64,000 nt of DNA. Origin: Haloactinospora alba. GTDB lineage: Bacteria; Actinomycetota; Actinomycetes; Streptosporangiales; Streptosporangiaceae. Made by a program: the position numbers and the translations under genes. Positions 26,263 to 35,657 of the stretch are shown piece by piece (positions within the stretch are counted from its first letter, which is position 1; every line of letters begins with the position of its first letter). The DNA lies in NCBI RefSeq assembly GCF_006717075.1, contig NZ_VFQC01000001.1, forward strand, positions 1,783,501 through 1,847,500. Reading direction: 5' to 3'. A model generated the notes under the pieces. The model was not told the DNA's origin. It worked only from the letters and a program-made list of their open reading frames with translations, and searched no databases.

Positions 26263-27105
26263 TCACTCTCCCGTCGCCGACGTCTCCTCCCCGACGGCCG
26301 AGGGAGCGGCGCGCAGCTGTTCCAGGAATCCGCCGACCGTGATGACCGTGGCCGACCACCCCAGTTCCCGTGCGAGGCGCAGCAGCTGCGGTTGCTCGAC
26401 CCGGGCCTCGTGCAGCTTGTCCTGCTGGGCGAACACCTCGGCGGGGGTGCCGTCGGCGATGATGCTTCCGTGGGCCATGACGATGACACGGTCGAAGTTC
26501 TCCGCGCAGAAGTCCATGTCGTGTGTGATCGCAACGACCGTGGTCCCCTGTTCGTGCAGCTCACCCAGGACGTGCTGGATCCTGGTGACCTCCCGGTGGT
26601 CCTGCCCGGTGGTGGGTTCGTCCAGCACGACCGCCGGGGTTCCCATGGCCAGTACCGAGGCCAGCGCGACACGTTTACGCTCCGCCGGGGACAGGTGGTA
26701 CGGGTGGTGGTCGGCCTGGTCGGTCAGTCCGGTGGCCTCCAGAGCCCACTGGGTGAGGCGGTGCCGTTCCGTCTCCGTCTTCGCGAGGTTGCGCGGACCG
26801 AACTCCACGTCGCGTCGGACCGTTTTCGCGAAGAGCTGGTCCGCCGGGTTCTGGAAGACGTAACCGACGCTGGCCGACAGTTGGGCGATGCTCTGGTCGG
26901 TTGTGTCCTGCCCCGCGATGCGGACGGTTCCGTCGGAGGGTTTGTATATGCCGTTGAGGTGGCGGGCGAGCGTGGTCTTCCCCGCTCCGTTCTGCCCGAT
27001 GATGGCGACCCGCTCCCCCGCGGCCACGTCCATGCTCACTCCCGTGAGGGCGGTGACACCGCTGGGGTAGGTGTAGCTGAGGTTACTGATACTGATCAGG
27101 CTCAT
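26263..27105 (-). CDS. ecfA: ECF transporter ATPase, second copy
   Basis: A 280-residue ABC ATPase of the energy-coupling-factor type. Walker A GQNGAGKT, Q-loop YVFQNPADQLFAKTV (the QNP-x-x-Q-hallmark of ECF ATPases), a variant signature LSPAERKRVALAS in place of LSGGQ, Walker B AVVLDEPTTGQD and the switch His in ITHDMD. ATG 27105 overlaps the upstream ATPase stop (ATGA) and follows GGAAGGAAAG. It pairs with the ATPase at 27102-27956 to power the EcfT/S transporter. Confidence 0.92.
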   Translation of the reverse strand: MSLISISNLSYTYPSGVTALTGVSMDVAAGERVAIIGQNGAGKTTLARHLNGIYKPSDGTVRIAGQDTTDQSIAQLSASVGYVFQNPADQLFAKTVRRDVEFGPRNLAKTETERHRLTQWALEATGLTDQADHHPYHLSPAERKRVALASVLAMGTPAVVLDEPTTGQDHREVTRIQHVLGELHEQGTTVVAITHDMDFCAENFDRVIVMAHGSIIADGTPAEVFAQQDKLHEARVEQPQLLRLARELGWSATVITVGGFLEQLRAAPSAVGEETSATGE

Positions 27106-27956
27106 CGCTTTCCTTCCAGGAACGCTCGGAAACCTGCAGCAGCGGCGTCCAGCGTCACAGGCAAGCTGCGACCGCTCGGCCACGCCCCTTCCCGTCGGGC
27201 TTCCATTGCCGCAGTGGCGAAGCGGGGGCGGCCGATTCCCCACTCCTCCATCCGCGTGTCGGTGAGGATCTCCTCCGGTGTCCCCTCCGCGACGAGCCGA
27301 CCGCCGGTGAGGACGTGGAGCTCGTCAGCGTACTCAGCGAGGAGTTCGAGTTTGTGCTCGATGAGAAGGACGGTCATCCCGGACTGGCGGATGGTCGCGA
27401 GCGCCTCGACTACCATGCGGGAGCCGGCGGGGTCGAGCTGGGAGGTGGGCTCGTCCAGGATGAGAACGCTGGGTTGCATAACCAGCATCGATGCCACCGC
27501 GATGACCTGCTGTTGCCCGCCGGAGAGTTCGTAGGGGGAGCGCTCCGCCAGGTGCGTGATGTCCAGCATCCGCATCACGTCGTCCACCCGGCGCACCATC
27601 TCGCCGCGTTCGGTCCCGAGGTTCTCGCAGCCGAACGCGATCTCTTCCCGGACGCTGAACCTGGCACCGGAGATCTGGTTGAACGGATCCTGTTGGACCA
27701 GCCCCACCCTGGTGACGAGCTCGGGCAGCGACGTGTCACCGACGGTGAGGCCGTCGACCGTGACATCCCCGGTGTACTCGCCGCCCTGTGCGTGGGGGAT
27801 GAACCCGGCGCCGGCCATGGCCAGGGTGGACTTTCCCGATCCGCCGGGGCCGACGAGGCCGTGGAACCGCCCGGGATGCACGTCCAGGGTGATGTCGTGC
27901 AGCACGGGGGACTCACTGGTCGGATAGGCGTAGGTGAAGTCGCGGAACGTGATCAC
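27102..27956 (-). CDS. ecfA: ECF transporter ATPase, first copy
   Basis: A 284-residue ABC ATPase with Walker A GPGGSGKS, Q-loop LVQQDPFNQISG, canonical signature LSGGQQQVIAVAS, Walker B LILDEPTSQLD and switch LLIEHKLE. Starts GTG 27956, one base after the ecfT stop. The two ATPases of the operon differ in their signature motif (LSGGQ here, LSPAE in the other), so the heterodimer may be functionally asymmetric. Confidence 0.93.
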   Translation of the reverse strand: MITFRDFTYAYPTSESPVLHDITLDVHPGRFHGLVGPGGSGKSTLAMAGAGFIPHAQGGEYTGDVTVDGLTVGDTSLPELVTRVGLVQQDPFNQISGARFSVREEIAFGCENLGTERGEMVRRVDDVMRMLDITHLAERSPYELSGGQQQVIAVASMLVMQPSVLILDEPTSQLDPAGSRMVVEALATIRQSGMTVLLIEHKLELLAEYADELHVLTGGRLVAEGTPEEILTDTRMEEWGIGRPRFATAAMEARREGAWPSGRSLPVTLDAAAAGFRAFLEGKR

Positions 27957-27957
27957 G

Positions 27958-28743
27958 TTAGAAAACCCCCAGCGTATTCAGCACGATCGCGGAGACTCCC
28001 AGCAGGATCATTCCCCAGCGCGCGGCTTGCTGGGTGCGGGAATCGCTGACAACGGTGTAGGCGGTCGGGTGGTGGGGAGAGCCGAACGCCCGGGACTCCA
28101 TGGCGATGGAGCGGTTCTCGACATCGGTGAGGGCGCCGAGGAGCAACGGCCCCATGAGCGGGACGAGCCGACGCGCTCGGCTCAGGGCACCGCCCGAGCT
28201 GGTCTCCATCCCGCGCGCCTGCTGTGCCTGCATAATCGCGGAGGCCCGCGCCTGGAAGGAGGGGATGATCTGCATGGTCGCCGAGATCACGTAGGCGATC
28301 TTCGGGGGCAGCCCCGCCTGTTGCATGCCCGACATCAGTGTTCCCGGGTGGGTGGTGAGCAGCAGCAGAATGAACGCCCCCACCATGACCAGCAGCCGCA
28401 GCGCGGTGGTGCCGGCGAAGACGAGACCCTCGGTCTTGATGGCGAAGGGGCCGAATTCGGCGAGCACCGTTCCGGGGTCCGGGTAGGTGAGTCCCTGCAG
28501 CAGGAACAGTATGACCAGGAACGGGCCGAAGAACCCGAGGACGAGCTTGCAGAACCGGAGAGCGGTTCGCGCGATGACCGCACCGGGGAGCTCCAGGACA
28601 ACGAACAGGAGGGCGGGCCACCATACGCTGTCCACTCCGAAGGCGGCGATGGTCACGGCAGCGACGAAGACCAGTTTGGTGACCGGGTTGAGCCGGTGGA
28701 TCCAGGTGGTGCCCTCGTCGTAGAAGTTCAGCGTCTGGCTCAC
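27958..28743 (-). CDS. ecfT: ECF transporter T component
   Basis: A 261-residue membrane protein with about six spans, the coupling scaffold of an ECF vitamin/metabolite importer. The cytoplasmic coupling helices carry QARGMETSSG (ARG motif) and ESRAFGSP (the second A-R-x-F/G motif), which contact the ATPase grooves. GTG 28743 overlaps the stop of the S-component gene. The frame is open much further upstream, but only as the shadow of the S-component gene and the intergenic DNA. Confidence 0.9.
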   Translation of the reverse strand: MSQTLNFYDEGTTWIHRLNPVTKLVFVAAVTIAAFGVDSVWWPALLFVVLELPGAVIARTALRFCKLVLGFFGPFLVILFLLQGLTYPDPGTVLAEFGPFAIKTEGLVFAGTTALRLLVMVGAFILLLLTTHPGTLMSGMQQAGLPPKIAYVISATMQIIPSFQARASAIMQAQQARGMETSSGGALSRARRLVPLMGPLLLGALTDVENRSIAMESRAFGSPHHPTAYTVVSDSRTQQAARWGMILLGVSAIVLNTLGVF

Positions 28744-29603
28744 GCTCGCCCTCCTTGCAACGTGTCCTCCTGGTGGGTGGCGTCCGCGGTTTCGGTCCGT
28801 GCCAGGGCCGAGGCGCGCCTGGGGGCGAACACCGCGTGCTTCCGGGCGAACGGGAAACGGGTCGAGAAGCGGCTGGGGAGGGATCGCAGGATCAACACCG
28901 CGATGAGGAAGGCGATTGCCTTGTCCAACGGGTCGACGGTGAGCCCCTGGGCTATCGCGGCGCCGAGCGTGTCCAACCCCAGGGTCTGGAACAGGGCGAC
29001 TATGGCGCTGCGTCCCGCCGAGGCGTTGGCGCCGCCGAAGACGAAGGCGGATATCGGACCGGAGATGAAGGCGGCCACTCCGCCGGTGATCACTCCCGCC
29101 GCGACGCACGTGACCAGACGCCGGGTCCAGCCCCAGCGGGCGAACAGACCGGCGAGCAGACCGATCCCGACCTGGGTGGTGGAGAACGGCAACGAGGCCG
29201 GGCTGATACTGATGCCCCAGATGACGTTGCTCAGTGCCCCCGTAGCGGCACCGGCCGCCGGCCCCGCGAGCAGGCCGACGAGTACCGTCCCGATCGAGTC
29301 GAGGTAGAGCGGCAGACCCACCATGTTGTTGATCTGTCCGGCCACGATGTTGATCGCGATGGCGATCGGCAACAGTGTCACCGTCGAGGTGGGCATCCGG
29401 GACATGGCGCCGGCGATGATCAGGGCGGAGCCGGCCAGGTAGCCGGCGAGAGCGACGAGTGCGGCTGGTCCGACCCCCGCACCACCCACCAGGCTTTCCG
29501 GCTGCCACACCACCAGGTAGAAGTACGTGGCGAGGATGATGGCAGCGCCTGCGGCGATGAGGAGCCAGGGTGGGTATCGTCGCTTTTCCGGTGAGGTGGT
29601 CAT
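28740..29603 (-). CDS. ECF transporter S component, unknown substrate
   Basis: A 287-residue membrane protein with about six to seven spans. INIVAGQINNMVGLPLYLDS and GTVLVGLLAGPAAGAATGAL match the S-component (substrate-binding) type of ECF transporters. First gene of the four-gene unit S-T-A-A, so this is a dedicated, group I transporter. Substrate is not evident. In other genomes this S subtype is seen near nucleoside or vitamin genes, from memory. ATG 29603 follows GGAGCTGCT. It has a long charged C-terminal tail. Confidence 0.85.
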   Translation of the reverse strand: MTTSPEKRRYPPWLLIAAGAAIILATYFYLVVWQPESLVGGAGVGPAALVALAGYLAGSALIIAGAMSRMPTSTVTLLPIAIAINIVAGQINNMVGLPLYLDSIGTVLVGLLAGPAAGAATGALSNVIWGISISPASLPFSTTQVGIGLLAGLFARWGWTRRLVTCVAAGVITGGVAAFISGPISAFVFGGANASAGRSAIVALFQTLGLDTLGAAIAQGLTVDPLDKAIAFLIAVLILRSLPSRFSTRFPFARKHAVFAPRRASALARTETADATHQEDTLQGGRA

Positions 29604-30105: not shown

Positions 30106-30930
30106 ATGGGTCGGGTGACGGTCCGCGAGAAGATACTGCGGATTCGGGAAGGCGCGGTGAGCGACCGTGTCGACACGTTGGTGGTGGAGGAACCGCTCGA
30201 GGTCCGCGTCAACGGGCGGCCGCTCACGGTGACGATGCGCACGCCCGGCAACGACTTCGACCTCGCCGTGGGTTTCCTCGCTGGTGAGGGGGTTGTCCAC
30301 CGGTCAGACGAGGTGGTGGGCATCCGTTACTGTGCCGGTTCCACCACGGAGGGCAGCAACACGTACAACATCGTGGACGTGGCTCTCGCACCGGGCGTCG
30401 TCGTTCCCGAGGCGTCCGTGGAGCGGAACTTCTACACCTCCTCCTCGTGCGGACTGTGCGGGAAGGCGAGTCTGGATGCGGTACGCACCGCCTCCCGCTG
30501 GACCGTCACCGAGGACCCGGTGGCGCTGACCCCCGCCACTCTGTCCGAGCTCCCCGAGAAGATGCGTGCGGCCCAGCGGGTGTTCGAACGCACGGGCGGG
30601 CTGCACGCTGCGGGGTTGTTCACCGCCGAGGGTGATCTCGTGGCGGTACGCGAGGATGTGGGACGGCACAACGCGGTGGACAAGCTCGTCGGCTGGGCGT
30701 TGCAGCACGGTCGGCTCCCGCTGCGGGAGACCGCGCTGATGGTCTCGGGGCGCGCCTCGTTCGAACTGGCGCAGAAAGCGCTGATGGCGGGGATCCCCGT
30801 GTTGGCCGCCGTGTCGGCTCCGTCGTCGCTGGCTGTCGAGCTGGCGGCCGAGTCCGGCCTGACACTGGTGGGCTTCCTGCGCGGGTCCTCGATGAACGTT
30901 TACACCCGACAGGAGCGGATCCTGGCGTGA
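30106..30930 (+). CDS. fdhD: formate dehydrogenase accessory sulfurtransferase FdhD
   Basis: A 274-residue FdhD protein, which carries sulfur from a cysteine desulfurase to the molybdenum (bis-MGD) cofactor of formate dehydrogenase. Key features: the mobile-loop cysteines in [10 protein letters not shown] near residue 115, the [15 protein letters not shown] block near 45, [15 protein letters not shown] near 184 and [12 protein letters not shown] near 211. ATG 30106 follows GAAAGG. No formate dehydrogenase or molybdopterin gene is in the window, so its partner lies elsewhere. Confidence 0.95.
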
Positions 30931-30949: not shown

Positions 30950-31675
30950 CTACTCGGGAAGGTCGCTGCGCAGCCACCGTTCGACCTCCAGCACGTGCAT
31001 GGTGGCGGCGGCGCGGGCGGCCTCGGGATCCCGGTTCAGCAGTCCGCGGTAGATACGCTCGTGGTCCTCCCGAAGCCGGGCGGTGAGTCCCGCTTCGCGG
31101 TGCCCGTGCCATACCCGGGCGTTGAACGTACGCGAGGAGAGTCCGTCGTTGATCGCCGCCAGTGTCGCGTTTCCGGTGATGTCCACGATGGCTTGGTGGA
31201 AGGTGAGGTCCGCGGCGACCGTCTCCCCCTCGCTTCCCCCGCCCTCGATCCGGTCCAGGATCGTCCCGAGCCGGTTGAGCTGTTCCTCGTCCGCCCGCGC
31301 CGCCGCCAGCGCGGTGGCCGCGGGCTCCAGCATGCGGCGGACCTGCAGGACCTCGATAAGGGTCTGTCCCTGTGATACCTCGGCGAGCACGGAGAAGGTG
31401 TCCAACAGGTCCCGCGGGCGCAGCGCCGATACGTAGACACCGGAGCCGTGCCGCACCTCCAGAACCCCGAGCGTTGTGAGCGCACGGATGGCTTCGCGCA
31501 TCGAACTGCGCGAGACCCCCAGCTCCCCGGCGAGTTCCCGCTCGGTGGGGAGCCGGTCTCCGGGGCTGAGCGTCCCGTCGGCGATCATCGTCTTGATGCG
31601 CTCGGTCGCCCATTGCGTGACCGGGGTCCGGCCGGCTGGTGGGGTCGCGCCGGGGGGACTGTCGGAAATAGGCAC
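30950..31675 (-). CDS. GntR-family regulator, FadR/LldR subfamily
   Basis: A 241-residue regulator with an N-terminal winged helix (LPTERELAGELGVSRSSMRE and LEVRHGSGVYV) and a C-terminal all-helical FCD ligand domain with metal-site histidines (DLTFHQAIV, NARVWHGHREAG, DHERIYRGLL). GTG 31675 has GGAGGGAACC upstream. It faces the FAH-lutABC operon across 215 bases containing TGGTCAGACCA. By position and subfamily it is likely an L-lactate-responsive LldR-like repressor of that operon, which is inference. Confidence 0.9.
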   Translation of the reverse strand: MPISDSPPGATPPAGRTPVTQWATERIKTMIADGTLSPGDRLPTERELAGELGVSRSSMREAIRALTTLGVLEVRHGSGVYVSALRPRDLLDTFSVLAEVSQGQTLIEVLQVRRMLEPAATALAAARADEEQLNRLGTILDRIEGGGSEGETVAADLTFHQAIVDITGNATLAAINDGLSSRTFNARVWHGHREAGLTARLREDHERIYRGLLNRDPEAARAAATMHVLEVERWLRSDLPE

Positions 31676-31783
31676 GTGGTTCCCTCCGTGTCGGGCCGCC
31701 GCCATGTTACTGGACAGTTGGTTGCGCCTCCCATCTTGACACCCTCCAAACCCCACACGTAAAAGTGATCATACCAATTTTCC

Positions 31784-31839: not shown

Positions 31840-31850
31840 TGGTCAGACCA
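31840..31850. promoter_or_regulatory. FadR/LldR-type operator
   Basis: TGGTCAGACCA, a perfect 5-1-5 palindrome 40 bases before the FAH start. It fits the TNGTNNNACNA consensus I recall for LldR of Corynebacterium and the general FadR-subfamily pattern. Confidence 0.7.
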
Positions 31851-31890
31851 ACGAACTATGCCGTAACTGGCCCAACGACACGGGAGCAAC

Positions 31891-32742
31891 GTGCGACACC
31901 TCAGGATCGGCCCGCATGGCAGTGAGCGCCCCGCCGTGATGGCTACGGACGGAACCGTGTACGACCTCAGCGGGGTGACGACGGACATCGACGCCGCGTT
32001 CCTCTCCGGTGGCGGTATCGAACGCACCCGACAGGCCCTGGACGACGGCGGACTCCCCCAGGTCACAGACCCACACCAGCAGCGCGTCGGCCCTCCGGTC
32101 GCTTCTCCCGGAAAGATCGTCGGTATCGGGTTGAACTACCTGGACCACGCAGCGGAGAGTGGAGCCTGCCCTCCCAACGAACCGATCGCTTTCCTCAAAC
32201 CCAGTGACACGGTGGTGGGGCCCGAGGACGACGTTGTCATCCCCCCACACAGCACCAAGACCGACCATGAGGTGGAGCTGGCGGTCGTCATCGGCAGCAC
32301 CGCTCGCTACCTGAGCAGTACGGAGGAGGCGAGGCGTTCCGTTGCGGGTTATACCGTCGCCAACGACGTCTCCGAGCGGGAGTTCCAGTTGGAACGCGGT
32401 GGACAGTGGGAGAAGGGGAAGTCGTGCGAGACTTTCACCCCTCTCGGCCCGTGGCTCGTCACCGGTGAGGACGCCGACGCGGCGCAGGCGGACGTGCGGT
32501 TGTGGGTCAACGGCGCCCTGGTCCAGAGCGGGAACACGTCGAACATGATCTTCGGTGTCGAGTACCTGGTGTACTACCTGAGCCACTTCATGGTGCTGCA
32601 TCCGGGCGACGTGGTCATCACGGGCACACCGGCGGGCGTCGCCATGGGACGTCCGGGACAGCCGTACCTGCGGCCGGGCGACACCATGGAACTGGCGATC
32701 GACGGGTTGGGACGACAGCGCCAGCAGCTCGTGGCGGCGTGA
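31891..32742 (+). CDS. fumarylacetoacetate hydrolase family protein
   Basis: A 283-residue FAH-superfamily C-C hydrolase. IVGIGLNYLDHAAESG (near residue 73), FLKPSDTVVGPEDDV, the metal-binding acidic residues in KTDHEVELAVVIG near 128 and NDVSEREFQ, and ITGTPAGVAMG near 248 are characteristic. Members cleave 2,4-diketo acids. Close relatives split 2,4-diketo-3-deoxy-L-fuconate or -rhamnonate into pyruvate and L-lactate, and lying before lutABC makes that activity attractive. GTG 31891 follows GGGAGCAAC. Confidence 0.88.
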   Translation: MRHLRIGPHGSERPAVMATDGTVYDLSGVTTDIDAAFLSGGGIERTRQALDDGGLPQVTDPHQQRVGPPVASPGKIVGIGLNYLDHAAESGACPPNEPIAFLKPSDTVVGPEDDVVIPPHSTKTDHEVELAVVIGSTARYLSSTEEARRSVAGYTVANDVSEREFQLERGGQWEKGKSCETFTPLGPWLVTGEDADAAQADVRLWVNGALVQSGNTSNMIFGVEYLVYYLSHFMVLHPGDVVITGTPAGVAMGRPGQPYLRPGDTMELAIDGLGRQRQQLVAA

Positions 32743-32860
32743 TCGCGGTGCTCCCGGAACCACGGGAACGGTTCCCGACGAACATGTACCTTACGTGTCG
32801 GCACGGTCTCCGGCCCGGCTACCGCACGGGCTCGTCCAATCTCGGAACGGTGGGAAAGAC

Positions 32861-33601
32861 ATGCGGATCGCGCTGTTCGTCACCTGCCTCAACGACACGC
32901 TGTTTCCCGCCACGGGACGTGCCGTGGTACGCCTGTTGGAACGTCTCGGTCACGAGGTGGTGTTTCCGCGGGCCCAGACGTGTTGCGGGCAGATGCACTA
33001 CAACACCGGGTACCGCAGGGACGCGCAGCGGATCGCGGTGCATTTCGTGCGGACGTTCTCCGACGCCGAGGCAGTGGTCGTTCCGTCGGGGTCGTGCGCG
33101 GCCATGGTCCGGGACAACTACCGGCGGTTGGCCGAACCGGGAAGCCGTCTCGCCCGCCAGGTCGAGAACCTGTTGCCACGCGTGTACGAACTCACTGAGC
33201 TGCTCACCGACGTGTTGGAGGTGCGCGATGTCGGAGCGTACTTCCCGTACTCCGTCACCTACCACCCCACGTGCCACGGCCTGCGGATGCTCGGTCTCGG
33301 GTCGAGGCCCTACGAGCTACTGCAGCGGGTGCGCGGGCTGAGACTGGTCGAGTTGCCGGAGGCCCGGGAGTGTTGCGGGTTCGGCGGGACCTTCGCGGTG
33401 AAGAACGCCGACGTGTCCGCTGCTATGGCCGCGGACAAGCTTGGCCAGGTGTCCGCGACGGGCGCCGAGGTGCTGTGCGCTGTGGACAATTCCTGCCTGA
33501 TGCACCTGGGGGGAACCGCACAGCGCGCCGGCACCGGTGTCCGGACCGTCCACCTGGCCGAGATCCTCTCCTCCACAGAACAGGAGCCGACGGTGCCATG
33601 A
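32861..33601 (+). CDS. lutA: lactate utilization protein LutA (LldE)
   Basis: A 246-residue CCG-domain protein, the first subunit of the iron-sulfur L-lactate dehydrogenase complex LutABC that oxidises L-lactate to pyruvate. Two cysteine-rich CCG repeats are visible: FVTCLNDTLFP with QTCCGQMHYNTGY, and YHPTCHGLRMLG with RECCGFGGTFAVKN. ATG 32861 follows GGTGGGAAAG. Overlaps lutB by four bases (ATGA). It lies 118 bases after the FAH gene, probably in the same transcript. Confidence 0.95.
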   Translation: MRIALFVTCLNDTLFPATGRAVVRLLERLGHEVVFPRAQTCCGQMHYNTGYRRDAQRIAVHFVRTFSDAEAVVVPSGSCAAMVRDNYRRLAEPGSRLARQVENLLPRVYELTELLTDVLEVRDVGAYFPYSVTYHPTCHGLRMLGLGSRPYELLQRVRGLRLVELPEARECCGFGGTFAVKNADVSAAMAADKLGQVSATGAEVLCAVDNSCLMHLGGTAQRAGTGVRTVHLAEILSSTEQEPTVP

Positions 33602-35031
33602 GTACGGCGTTCATGGGAATGCCGGGCTTTCCACGCGCGGCTCGTGCGGCGGTGAACGACGCCCAGCTGCGGAGCAACCTGCGTACGGCCACCCGCACCA
33701 TCCGGGAGAAGCGCGACGCCGCGGTCTCCGAACTGGACGACTGGCAGGACCTGCGGGCGGCAGGCCAGGCCATAAAGAATCGAACGCTGCGCCACCTGGA
33801 CCTCTATCTGGAGCGGTTGGAGTCCGCGGTCCAGGCGGCCGGGGGCAGGGTGCACTGGGCCTCCGACGCTGCGGAGGCCAACCGTCTGGTCACCCGTCTC
33901 GTGCGTGACACCGGCGAGAGCGAGGTCGTCAAGGTGAAGTCGATGACGACCCAGGAGATCGAGCTCAACGAAGCTCTCGGCCAGGCCGGCATCACCGCCT
34001 ACGAGACCGACCTCGCCGAACTGATCGTGCAGCTCAGCGAGGACCGGCCCTCGCACATCCTCGTTCCGGCCATCCACCGCAACCGTGCCGAGATCCGTGA
34101 CATCCTGGCCTCCCACATGGCGGAGTGGGGGACTCCCGCCCCCGAGGGGCTCACCGACGACCCCCGCGCGCTGGCGGAGGCGGCCCGGAGGCACCTCCGC
34201 GACAGGTTCCTGACCACCAACGTGGCGGTGTCCGGGGCGAACTTCGCCGTCGCCGACACCGGGACCATGGTGGTACTCGAGTCCGAGGGCAACGGACGTA
34301 TGTGCCTGACCCTGCCGCGCACCCTGATCTCGGTGGTGGGAATCGAGAAGGTCGTACCGAGCTGGTCCGACCTGGAGGTGTTCCTGCAACTGCTGCCGCG
34401 CTCGTCGACCGGGGAGCGGATGAACCCCTACACCTCGACCTGGACCGGCGTGGCCCCGGGGGACGGCCCCGAGGAGTTCCATCTGGTGCTGCTGGACAAC
34501 GGCCGTACGAACGCACTCTCCGACACCGTGGGGCGTCAGGCCCTGCGCTGCATCCGTTGCTCAGCCTGCCTGAACGTCTGTCCCGTCTACGAACGCACCG
34601 GCGGTCACGCCTACGGTTCGGTGTATCCCGGACCGATCGGTGCGATCCTCACCCCCCAGCTCCGGGGAACCACCGCGGAGCCGGAAGCCTCCCTACCGTA
34701 CGCCTCCTCGCTGTGTGGAGCCTGTTACGAGGTCTGTCCGGTGTCCATCGACATTCCCGACGTTCTCGTACGACTGCGTGAACAGGTGGTCTCGCAACCG
34801 GGCCACCGATCCGAGAAGGCCGCGATGCGCGCTGCCGGTTGGGTCCTGGGCGGCCACCGCAGGTTGGGTCTGGCCCAGGCAGCGGCGACGGCGGCGCGGT
34901 CGGTGGTGCCCCGCCGCCTGCCCCCTCCCGCCTCGGCCTGGACCGACAGCCGGGACCTACCGTCCGTACCCGGCAGAACGTTCCGGGAGTGGTGGCGCGA
35001 CCGGGCCGAGGGGAAGGAGAGCGGCGCGTGA
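33598..35031 (+). CDS. lutB: lactate utilization protein LutB (LldF)
   Basis: A 477-residue LUD-domain protein with ferredoxin-like C-terminal clusters. The LUD domain spans about residues 70-300 (VSGANFAVADTGTMVV near 213). The [4Fe-4S] motifs CIRCSACLNVCPVY (near 317) and CGACYEVCP (near 371) carry electrons from lactate oxidation. ATG 33598 overlaps the lutA stop and the lutC start overlaps its own stop, so translation of lutABC is coupled. Confidence 0.95.
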   Translation: MSTAFMGMPGFPRAARAAVNDAQLRSNLRTATRTIREKRDAAVSELDDWQDLRAAGQAIKNRTLRHLDLYLERLESAVQAAGGRVHWASDAAEANRLVTRLVRDTGESEVVKVKSMTTQEIELNEALGQAGITAYETDLAELIVQLSEDRPSHILVPAIHRNRAEIRDILASHMAEWGTPAPEGLTDDPRALAEAARRHLRDRFLTTNVAVSGANFAVADTGTMVVLESEGNGRMCLTLPRTLISVVGIEKVVPSWSDLEVFLQLLPRSSTGERMNPYTSTWTGVAPGDGPEEFHLVLLDNGRTNALSDTVGRQALRCIRCSACLNVCPVYERTGGHAYGSVYPGPIGAILTPQLRGTTAEPEASLPYASSLCGACYEVCPVSIDIPDVLVRLREQVVSQPGHRSEKAAMRAAGWVLGGHRRLGLAQAAATAARSVVPRRLPPPASAWTDSRDLPSVPGRTFREWWRDRAEGKESGA

Positions 35032-35657
35032 ACGGGTCACGCGAACGGGTCCTGGGACGGATCCGTGCGGCCCTGGCCGACGTACCCGCTGGGGAGGCGC
35101 CCCCGGACGTCTCCGTACCGCAGACGTACGCGGCCAGTCACGAGCAGGGTGAGAGGTTGGAGCTCCTCGCCGGACGGATCGCGGACTACCGGGCGGAGGT
35201 CCACCGGACCACCGGCGGCGGCCTTCCCGACACGATCGCTGCGGTCCTGTCCCAACGGCGAACGCGGCGCGCCGTCACCGCTTCGGACGCTCCTCCGGTG
35301 TGGTTCACCAGTACCGCGGCCGAGGTCGTCCGCGACGACGGGGTGGACGTGGCGACGTTGGAGGGGACCGACAGTGTCGTCACCGGGTGCGCGCTGGCCG
35401 TCGCGGAGACGGGGACGCTGGTGTTGGACAGCGGAGCGGCGCAGGGCCGCCGGATCATCAGCTTGATACCCGACCACCACGTATGTGTGGTGAACGCGTC
35501 CGATGTGGTGGCAAGCGTTCCGCACGCGCTTCACCGACTGGATCCCGACCGCCCGCTGACCTGGATCAGTGGACCCTCCGCCACCAGCGACATCGAGCTG
35601 GAACGGGTGGAGGGGGTGCACGGGCCGCGGGTCCTGGACGTTGTCCTGGTGGAATGA
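35028..35657 (+). CDS. lutC: lactate utilization protein LutC (LldG)
   Basis: A 209-residue LUD-domain protein, third subunit of the L-lactate dehydrogenase complex. VVTGCALAVAETGTLVLDSG near residue 120 and LTWISGPSATSDIEL with ERVEGVHGPR near 182 are the family signature. GTG 35028 lies within the lutB stop. It closes the operon, and no L-lactate permease follows. Confidence 0.94.
   Translation: MNGSRERVLGRIRAALADVPAGEAPPDVSVPQTYAASHEQGERLELLAGRIADYRAEVHRTTGGGLPDTIAAVLSQRRTRRAVTASDAPPVWFTSTAAEVVRDDGVDVATLEGTDSVVTGCALAVAETGTLVLDSGAAQGRRIISLIPDHHVCVVNASDVVASVPHALHRLDPDRPLTWISGPSATSDIELERVEGVHGPRVLDVVLVE

Follow-up and report, generated by a model that had tools for sequence, protein, structure and literature searches.

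What supplies substrate to a fumarylacetoacetate hydrolase (FAH)-family enzyme whose gene lies at the head of a lactate utilization operon? The window analyzed here, a 64,000-nucleotide stretch of Haloactinospora alba DNA (contig NZ_VFQC01000001.1, positions 1,783,501 to 1,847,500), raises this question with an FAH gene followed by lutA, lutB, and lutC on the forward strand (31891-35657). A first-pass annotation had taken the four genes for the end of a non-phosphorylating L-fucose or L-rhamnose route. Our analysis bears this out as far as the enzyme is of the FucG/LRA6 type and is linked to lutABC and fucose genes in some relatives, but the dehydratase and dehydrogenase of the upper pathway were not detected in this genome. 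On balance, we lean toward the view that the FAH gene is the terminal module of an L-fucose catabolic route, stranded in a LutR-lutABC operon, intact in H. alba and eroded or repurposed in sister genera.

The FAH protein and the lutABC operon

The FAH gene (31891-32742, + strand) encodes a 283-residue protein with a PF01557 domain (228 bits). Its best solved relative by sequence is LRA6 (PDB 8gsr, E 2.8e-73; the runner-up scores 7.1e-52). An AlphaFold2 model built from 25 sequences has a mean confidence (pLDDT) of 90, and its top fold matches are 8gst and 8gsr, with a template modeling (TM) score of 0.91, a Z score of 38.8, and a root-mean-square deviation of 1.7 over 273 residues. The active-site residues H86, E89, E127, E129, D159, K103, Q166, and K177 are as in LRA6. 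Among these, His86 and Glu89 (codons 86-89, 32146-32157, + strand) form a dyad that corresponds to His30-Glu33 of FAHD1 in a phmmer alignment in which query residue 75 is residue 19 of 6fog_A, a gapless start being assumed; residues 84-90 are helical in the model. Two other identities were rejected: the genome has a separate tyrosine-pathway fumarylacetoacetase above cut-off at C1:883704, and the match to the HpaG-type isomerase family TIGR02303 reaches 176.6 of 276.4 bits. The protein thus appears to be of the FucG/LRA6 type, and the chemistry proposed in the first-pass annotation fits this enzyme family.

Downstream on the same strand lie lutA (32861-33601), which encodes a cysteine-rich CCG protein (PF02754), lutB (33598-35031), which encodes LUD, 4Fe-4S, and LutB_C domains (PF02589, PF13183, and PF11870), and lutC (35028-35657), which encodes a LUD domain (PF02589). 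The LutABC domain set is therefore complete and in order, with LutB narrowly under the TIGR00273 equivalog cut-off (435.6 versus 444.8 bits; three relatives that were scored give 431.6-436.4). The lutA/lutB and lutB/lutC junctions are 4-nt overlaps, and 118 nt separate the FAH gene from lutA. A terminator in this gap was rejected, since folding detected no terminator-like hairpin (z-score 0.34), and there was no match to a sigma-70-like promoter, the only promoter type looked for. At one related locus (L058 of G007; here and below, G denotes a genome and L a fetched locus) the corresponding gap is only 4 nt by that locus's own gene calls. The placement of FAH upstream of lutABC on one strand was verified for genes and domains, and nine other genomes share the regulator-FAH-lutABC order (9/62 loci examined, window included), which indicates that FAH is not a chance neighbor of lutABC.

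Upper-pathway genes in the H. alba genome

The genome that contains the window (4.94 Mb in 4 contigs, 98.65% complete) was searched for the dehydratase and the short-chain dehydrogenase/reductase (SDR) of the upper pathway; the lactonase, aldo-keto reductase (AKR), mutarotase, and transporter genes were outside this genome-wide search. Our L-fuconate dehydratase (FucD) query itself has as its best PDB match the L-fuconate dehydratase 2hne (E 2.5e-204). No FucD was found with it in the window genome, where the top-scoring protein (E 4.6e-13) is instead an o-succinylbenzoate synthase above its own cut-off. The MR/MLE family is represented in the genome by two MenC-like proteins and an enolase, with no sugar-acid dehydratase among them; they were rejected as candidates because two resemble o-succinylbenzoate synthase (one above and one below cut-off) and the third is the enolase. 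Within the IlvD/EDD family the genome has IlvD alone, UxuA/UxaA-type dehydratases not having been searched. For the dehydrogenase, the best SDR is only 39% identical to a fucose-cluster SDR and scores above another model's cut-off; another, at 37%, was left unexamined. Searches of this sensitivity thus give no support for an L-fucose or L-rhamnose pathway in this genome.

FAH, FucD, and lut genes in relatives

A survey of 341 genomes from the family of H. alba shows FAH (E ≤ 1e-80) in 163, FucD (E ≤ 1e-120) in 168, and both in 147. At these thresholds, 16 of the 163 FAH genomes lack FucD, namely nine with lut-linked FAH genes plus G052, G061, G151, G248, G280, G317, and G330; of these last seven, the loci of G061 and G052 were read. 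The survey scored five FucD candidates per genome, and absence was confirmed by scoring every candidate in six of the lut-linked genomes (G000, G075, G020, G101, G008, and G072) and in G061, while G189, G190, and G191 have five-candidate scoring only. In G052 the FAH gene, with its dyad kept, lies with an SDR and an AKR gene on a 5.4-kb contig, and FucD may be missing there through fragmentation.

We examined 61 FAH loci besides that of the window, picked by best score plus spread (40 + 20 places) rather than at random, so that more lut-linked FAHs than the ten described here may exist. Outside the window's clade lie 52 of these loci; in 38 of them the fetched stretch includes FucD, accompanied by an SDR (37 loci), an AKR (34), an L-fuconolactonase-like amidohydrolase (27), a sugar-binding protein (27), and a RhaM-type mutarotase (17). 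The fetched stretches of four of these 38 also include lut genes. In L069 (from G016), FAH, FucD, SDR, AKR, lutABC, mutarotase, and lactonase genes follow one another closely on one strand; in L110 (G267), the fucose genes are followed by an opposite-strand GntR gene and then lutABC; and in L062 and L104, lutA lies at the edge of the stretch. A further arrangement is found in G007, where FAH-lutABC occupies one locus and a separate L-fucose cluster without FAH has alpha-L-fucosidase, transporter, FucD, SDR, AKR, mutarotase, and lactonase genes. The FAH beside lutABC is the sole FAH of G007 at E ≤ 1e-60. For the genomes of L069, L110, L062, and L104, the notion that FAH and LutABC would form a lower L-fucose route that takes both halves to pyruvate is a sound one.

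Two side observations concern these loci. In L074 (G061), FAH-lutABC has no regulator of the LutR type and follows ABC transporter genes, a gene for a SASA-type esterase, and a gene for a 777-residue protein lacking a Pfam match; the dyad is intact, the genome has no FucD match, and this FAH-lut linkage is separate from the clade. In addition, a gene for nickel lactate racemase (LarA) occurs in the same stretch as FAH at 11 of the 52 loci (L048, L050-L053, L057, L060, L084, L099, L100, and L106; eight with FucD), in L048 together with LarC and an AIRC-domain protein, and, among named GTDB genomes, at 18 of 80 FAH loci. LarA near FAH is perhaps another disposal route for the L-lactate half.

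The ten FAHs in the order regulator-FAH-lutABC group as a single clade (bootstrap/SH-aLRT 94/96; recovered in 96% of 200 bootstrap trees) inside mostly fucose-linked FAHs. Within it, G007 branches first and the window second, followed by two further genera. Nine of the ten genomes lack FucD, and the tenth, G007, has it in the separate fucose cluster.

The lactate operon, its regulator, and its operators

LutA (E ≤ 1e-95) is encoded in 271 of the 341 genomes. At 20 of 30 LutA loci that were fetched there is no FAH beside lutA, and 15 of these 20 have, upstream of lutA, an opposite-strand regulator at least 70% identical to that of the window. One FAH-less operon, L227 (a longer stretch of G042), reproduces the window's fdhD-regulator-lutABC order. 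The window's regulator, of the FadR/FCD type of GntR proteins (30950-31756, - strand; PF00392 and PF07729; its start, at 31705 or 31756, is uncertain), falls in a tree within a group of regulators of FAH-less lutABC operons, whose sister group consists of fucose-cluster regulators (SH-aLRT 99 each). Since FAH-less LutR-lutABC operons are common and the regulator belongs to the lut group, FAH is an extra gene in an ordinary-looking lactate operon, and this resemblance makes a dedicated sugar-acid operon unlikely here.

Two putative operators lie between the regulator and FAH genes, and both match the pattern TGRTCNKACCAAY exactly, a pattern that was composed after both sites were seen. The first, TGATCATACCAAT (31766-31778), was absent from the first-pass annotation. 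The second, TGGTCAGACCAAC (31840-31852), contains the operator that the annotation had placed at 31840, which is a real site (TGGTCAGACCA at 31840-31850). The annotation's further suggestion, that genes for a dehydratase and a dehydrogenase sharing this operator be sought in the genome, led to neither enzyme, and TGRTCNKACCAAY has no exact match in the 4.94 Mb apart from these two sites. With one mismatch allowed, the genome has 39 matches versus 38 for a reversed control. The regulator therefore looks local, and control of distant sugar genes by it was rejected for want of any further exact copy. In raw counts, at least one TGRTCNKACCA site occurs upstream of FAH in seven of the nine other lut-clade loci (L067 and L087 show none), a looser pattern occurs in 8 of the 52 other FAH loci, and 14 of the 20 FAH-less lut loci have TGRTCNKACCA in the 400 bp preceding lutA, with a looser site in a fifteenth.

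As a separate observation, the fucose cluster of L045 (G041), which has its own regulator, has an operator-like site, TGGTCCGACCAAT, upstream of FAH that is close to LutR's, and at another locus of the same genome (L136) a similar site precedes lutA. Cross-regulation of fucose and lactate genes is possible in G041.

The catalytic dyad and selection across the clade

Outside the clade, His86 is present in 52 of 52 FAH loci and Glu89 in 51. Likewise, both residues are kept at 78 of the 80 FAH loci from named GTDB genomes; the exceptions, Nocardiopsis halophila and N. endophytica, both have FAH beside lutABC and are not new cases, being already within the clade of ten. Within that clade, Glu89 is lost in eight members and His86 also in six. 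The dyad is kept in the window and in G007, while genus g21 (two genomes) has Arg or Ala at position 89 and genus g9 (six genomes) has Tyr86 and Ala89. Seven other residues (Lys103, Glu127, Glu129, Asp159, Arg163, Gln166, and Lys177), to which we ascribe roles in metal and enolate chemistry on the model of FAHD1, do not vary among the ten, and all ten reading frames are intact with no internal stops. A strict tie between dyad loss and FucD loss was rejected, since the window genome and G061 (L074) lack FucD yet keep the dyad. The sole Glu89 exception outside the clade is L082 (G044:C19:286066-302902), which has Ala89 and no lutABC link in a genome without FucD at E ≤ 1e-120; it is likely an independent loss of the dyad glutamate.

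Rough ratios of nonsynonymous to synonymous substitution (dN/dS, by the NG86 method) are 0.19-0.43 for FAH in seven dyad-less pairs, which overlap and of which six lie within one genus, versus 0.07-0.19 in six non-clade pairs from FucD genomes. The same seven pairs give 0.09-0.21 for LutA, 0.18-0.30 for LutB, 0.21-0.37 for LutC, and 0.09-0.41 for the regulator. The clade FAH thus seems more weakly constrained than its fucose-linked cousins, in line with LutC, and still constrained.

These patterns bear on two alternatives to a stranded module. The first, which we entertain tentatively, is that the clade FAH has been repurposed and, instead of hydrolyzing C-C bonds, performs metal-enolate chemistry such as that of an oxaloacetate or pyruvate-enol tautomerase or decarboxylase, which would aid the flux from L-lactate to pyruvate, with the window copy at the start of the process. 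In the available text of PMC8398924 and PMC7115867, the His-Glu dyad of FAHD1 is put forward as the activator of the hydrolytic water, and there and in that of PMC12176266, Lys123/Gln109 are proposed to serve tautomerization and decarboxylation. Loss of the dyad residues beside seven unchanged metal, lysine, and enolate residues, in frames without internal stops and with dN/dS well under 1, is what such a change of function would leave. However, the dyad is intact in the window copy, no member has a known activity, six of the seven dN/dS pairs come from one genus and share sequences, and the available text of PMC8398924 and PMC7115867 also proposes that the FAHD1 dyad helps to quench the enolate. 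An equally tentative ordering of events is that, after loss of the L-fucose route, Glu89 and then His86 were given up, the Mg/Lys/Gln enolate machinery being kept under purifying selection, with the window as an intact intermediate.

The second alternative, that FAH is a functionless relic in FucD-less genomes, carried in the lactate operon until it is lost, strikes us as unlikely. Dyad loss in eight of ten members, the elevated FAH dN/dS, and the many LutA loci without FAH would be expected of a decaying gene, but every frame and every metal and lysine site in the clade has survived, the window active site is complete, and the dN/dS of FAH is in keeping with that of LutC in the same pairs.

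Neighboring genes

Beyond the regulator, on the side away from FAH, lies fdhD (30118-30930, + strand; NCBIfam NF001943, 390 bits with a cut-off of 269), which encodes a formate dehydrogenase accessory sulfurtransferase and is outside the operon. It is also a neighbor in L046, L047, and the FAH-less operon L227. Farther in that direction, 26263-29603 (- strand) has the appearance, by eye, of an ECF-type transporter operon with two ATPase-like proteins, one T-like protein, and one S-like protein; the S-like protein, the sole member scanned, has a Pfam ECF_trnsprt match under cut-off.

Discussion

The stranded module that we favor could have arisen and work as follows. FucG, which ends the non-phosphorylating L-fucose route, splits L-2,4-diketo-3-deoxyfuconate, chemically an L-lactoyl-pyruvate, into pyruvate and L-lactate. 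The FAH gene of the window derives from the FAH genes of L-fucose clusters, and the upper pathway would have been lost from this lineage, or never have been present in it, so as to leave the terminal module stranded. LutR would now switch on FAH jointly with LutABC, probably in response to L-lactate. Because its active site is complete, the window FAH is expected still to hydrolyze lactoyl-pyruvate-like acylpyruvates, and LutABC would oxidize the L-lactate half to pyruvate.

Several observations weigh against this view. The window genome offers no known substrate source for FAH. The best family match of the protein, NCBIfam NF053535 (L-2,4-diketo-3-deoxyfuconate/rhamnonate hydrolase), reaches 315.6 bits under a 500-bit cut-off; four fucose-locus FAHs outside the lut clade likewise score under it (306-355 bits), which means that this threshold cannot tell them apart from the window protein. 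All NCBIfam matches of the regulator are also under cut-off, with NanR (112.5 of 260) above LldR (101 of 311); we call it LutR-like on the basis of context and tree. The 118-nt gap between FAH and lutA leaves room for a separate promoter. Finally, the FAH-bearing operons do not fall together as one clade in a LutA+LutB tree, which implies four changes, two of them forced by starred branches, so that losses, exchange, or more than one insertion are needed.

A working non-phosphorylating L-fucose or L-rhamnose route in H. alba, in which the operon would convert the diketo acid entirely to pyruvate, from either half, is very unlikely, for although the enzyme types suit it and the same module occurs in the upper-pathway genomes of L069, L110, and G007, the genome lacks FucD, any SDR closer than 39%, any sugar-acid dehydratase among its MR/MLE or IlvD/EDD proteins, and any further exact operator copy.

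These genomes offer a natural series in which one can test what becomes of a terminal enzyme once its pathway is lost: lutABC in a single row with the pathway, pathway over two loci, dehydratase gone with the enzyme intact, and dehydratase gone with the dyad lost. They also carry a warning, in that an FAH gene adjoining lutABC is no proof of growth on L-fucose. Should the dyad-less proteins turn out to have activity, they would make up an as yet undescribed FAH subfamily tied to lactate oxidation. Our literature search, whose coverage mostly excludes subscription journals, returned no publication on lutABC with a fumarylacetoacetate hydrolase or on such a module.

Four known systems may be compared with this one. 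LutABC/LldEFG is an L-lactate utilization operon with a GntR regulator. The window shares its lutA-lutB-lutC order, a divergent regulator, and operators like those of FAH-less relatives, and differs in having an FAH gene between the operators and lutA. LRA6 of Sphingomonas sp. (PDB 8gsr/8gst) is, in the available text of PMC11199699, the L-2,4-diketo-3-deoxyrhamnonate hydrolase of the nonphosphorylated L-rhamnose pathway; it has 46-47% full-length identity to the window FAH, the same fold by TM score, and the same dyad, metal, and lysine residues, whereas the window gene lies in a lactate operon without a detected upstream dehydratase or dehydrogenase. FucG is described in the same source as an enzyme of the non-phosphorylating L-fucose route 3, and the available text of PMC13406643 names C785_RS20550 of H. 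huttiense as the FucG of that route. The window genome differs from FucG-bearing ones in having neither the dehydratase nor the dehydrogenase; its FAH is nevertheless 59-68% identical to 36 of the 38 FAHs in L-fuconate dehydratase loci and 49% identical to the other two. The RhaR regulons with RhaEW, as presented in the available text of PMC3870299, where "diketo" and "GntR" do not appear, concern a phosphorylated rhamnose route with its sugar genes present. They include lldD/lldEFG, by which the deoxysugar route is extended from L-lactate to pyruvate, and it is this idea of an L-lactate to pyruvate extension by lldEFG that they share with the module described here.

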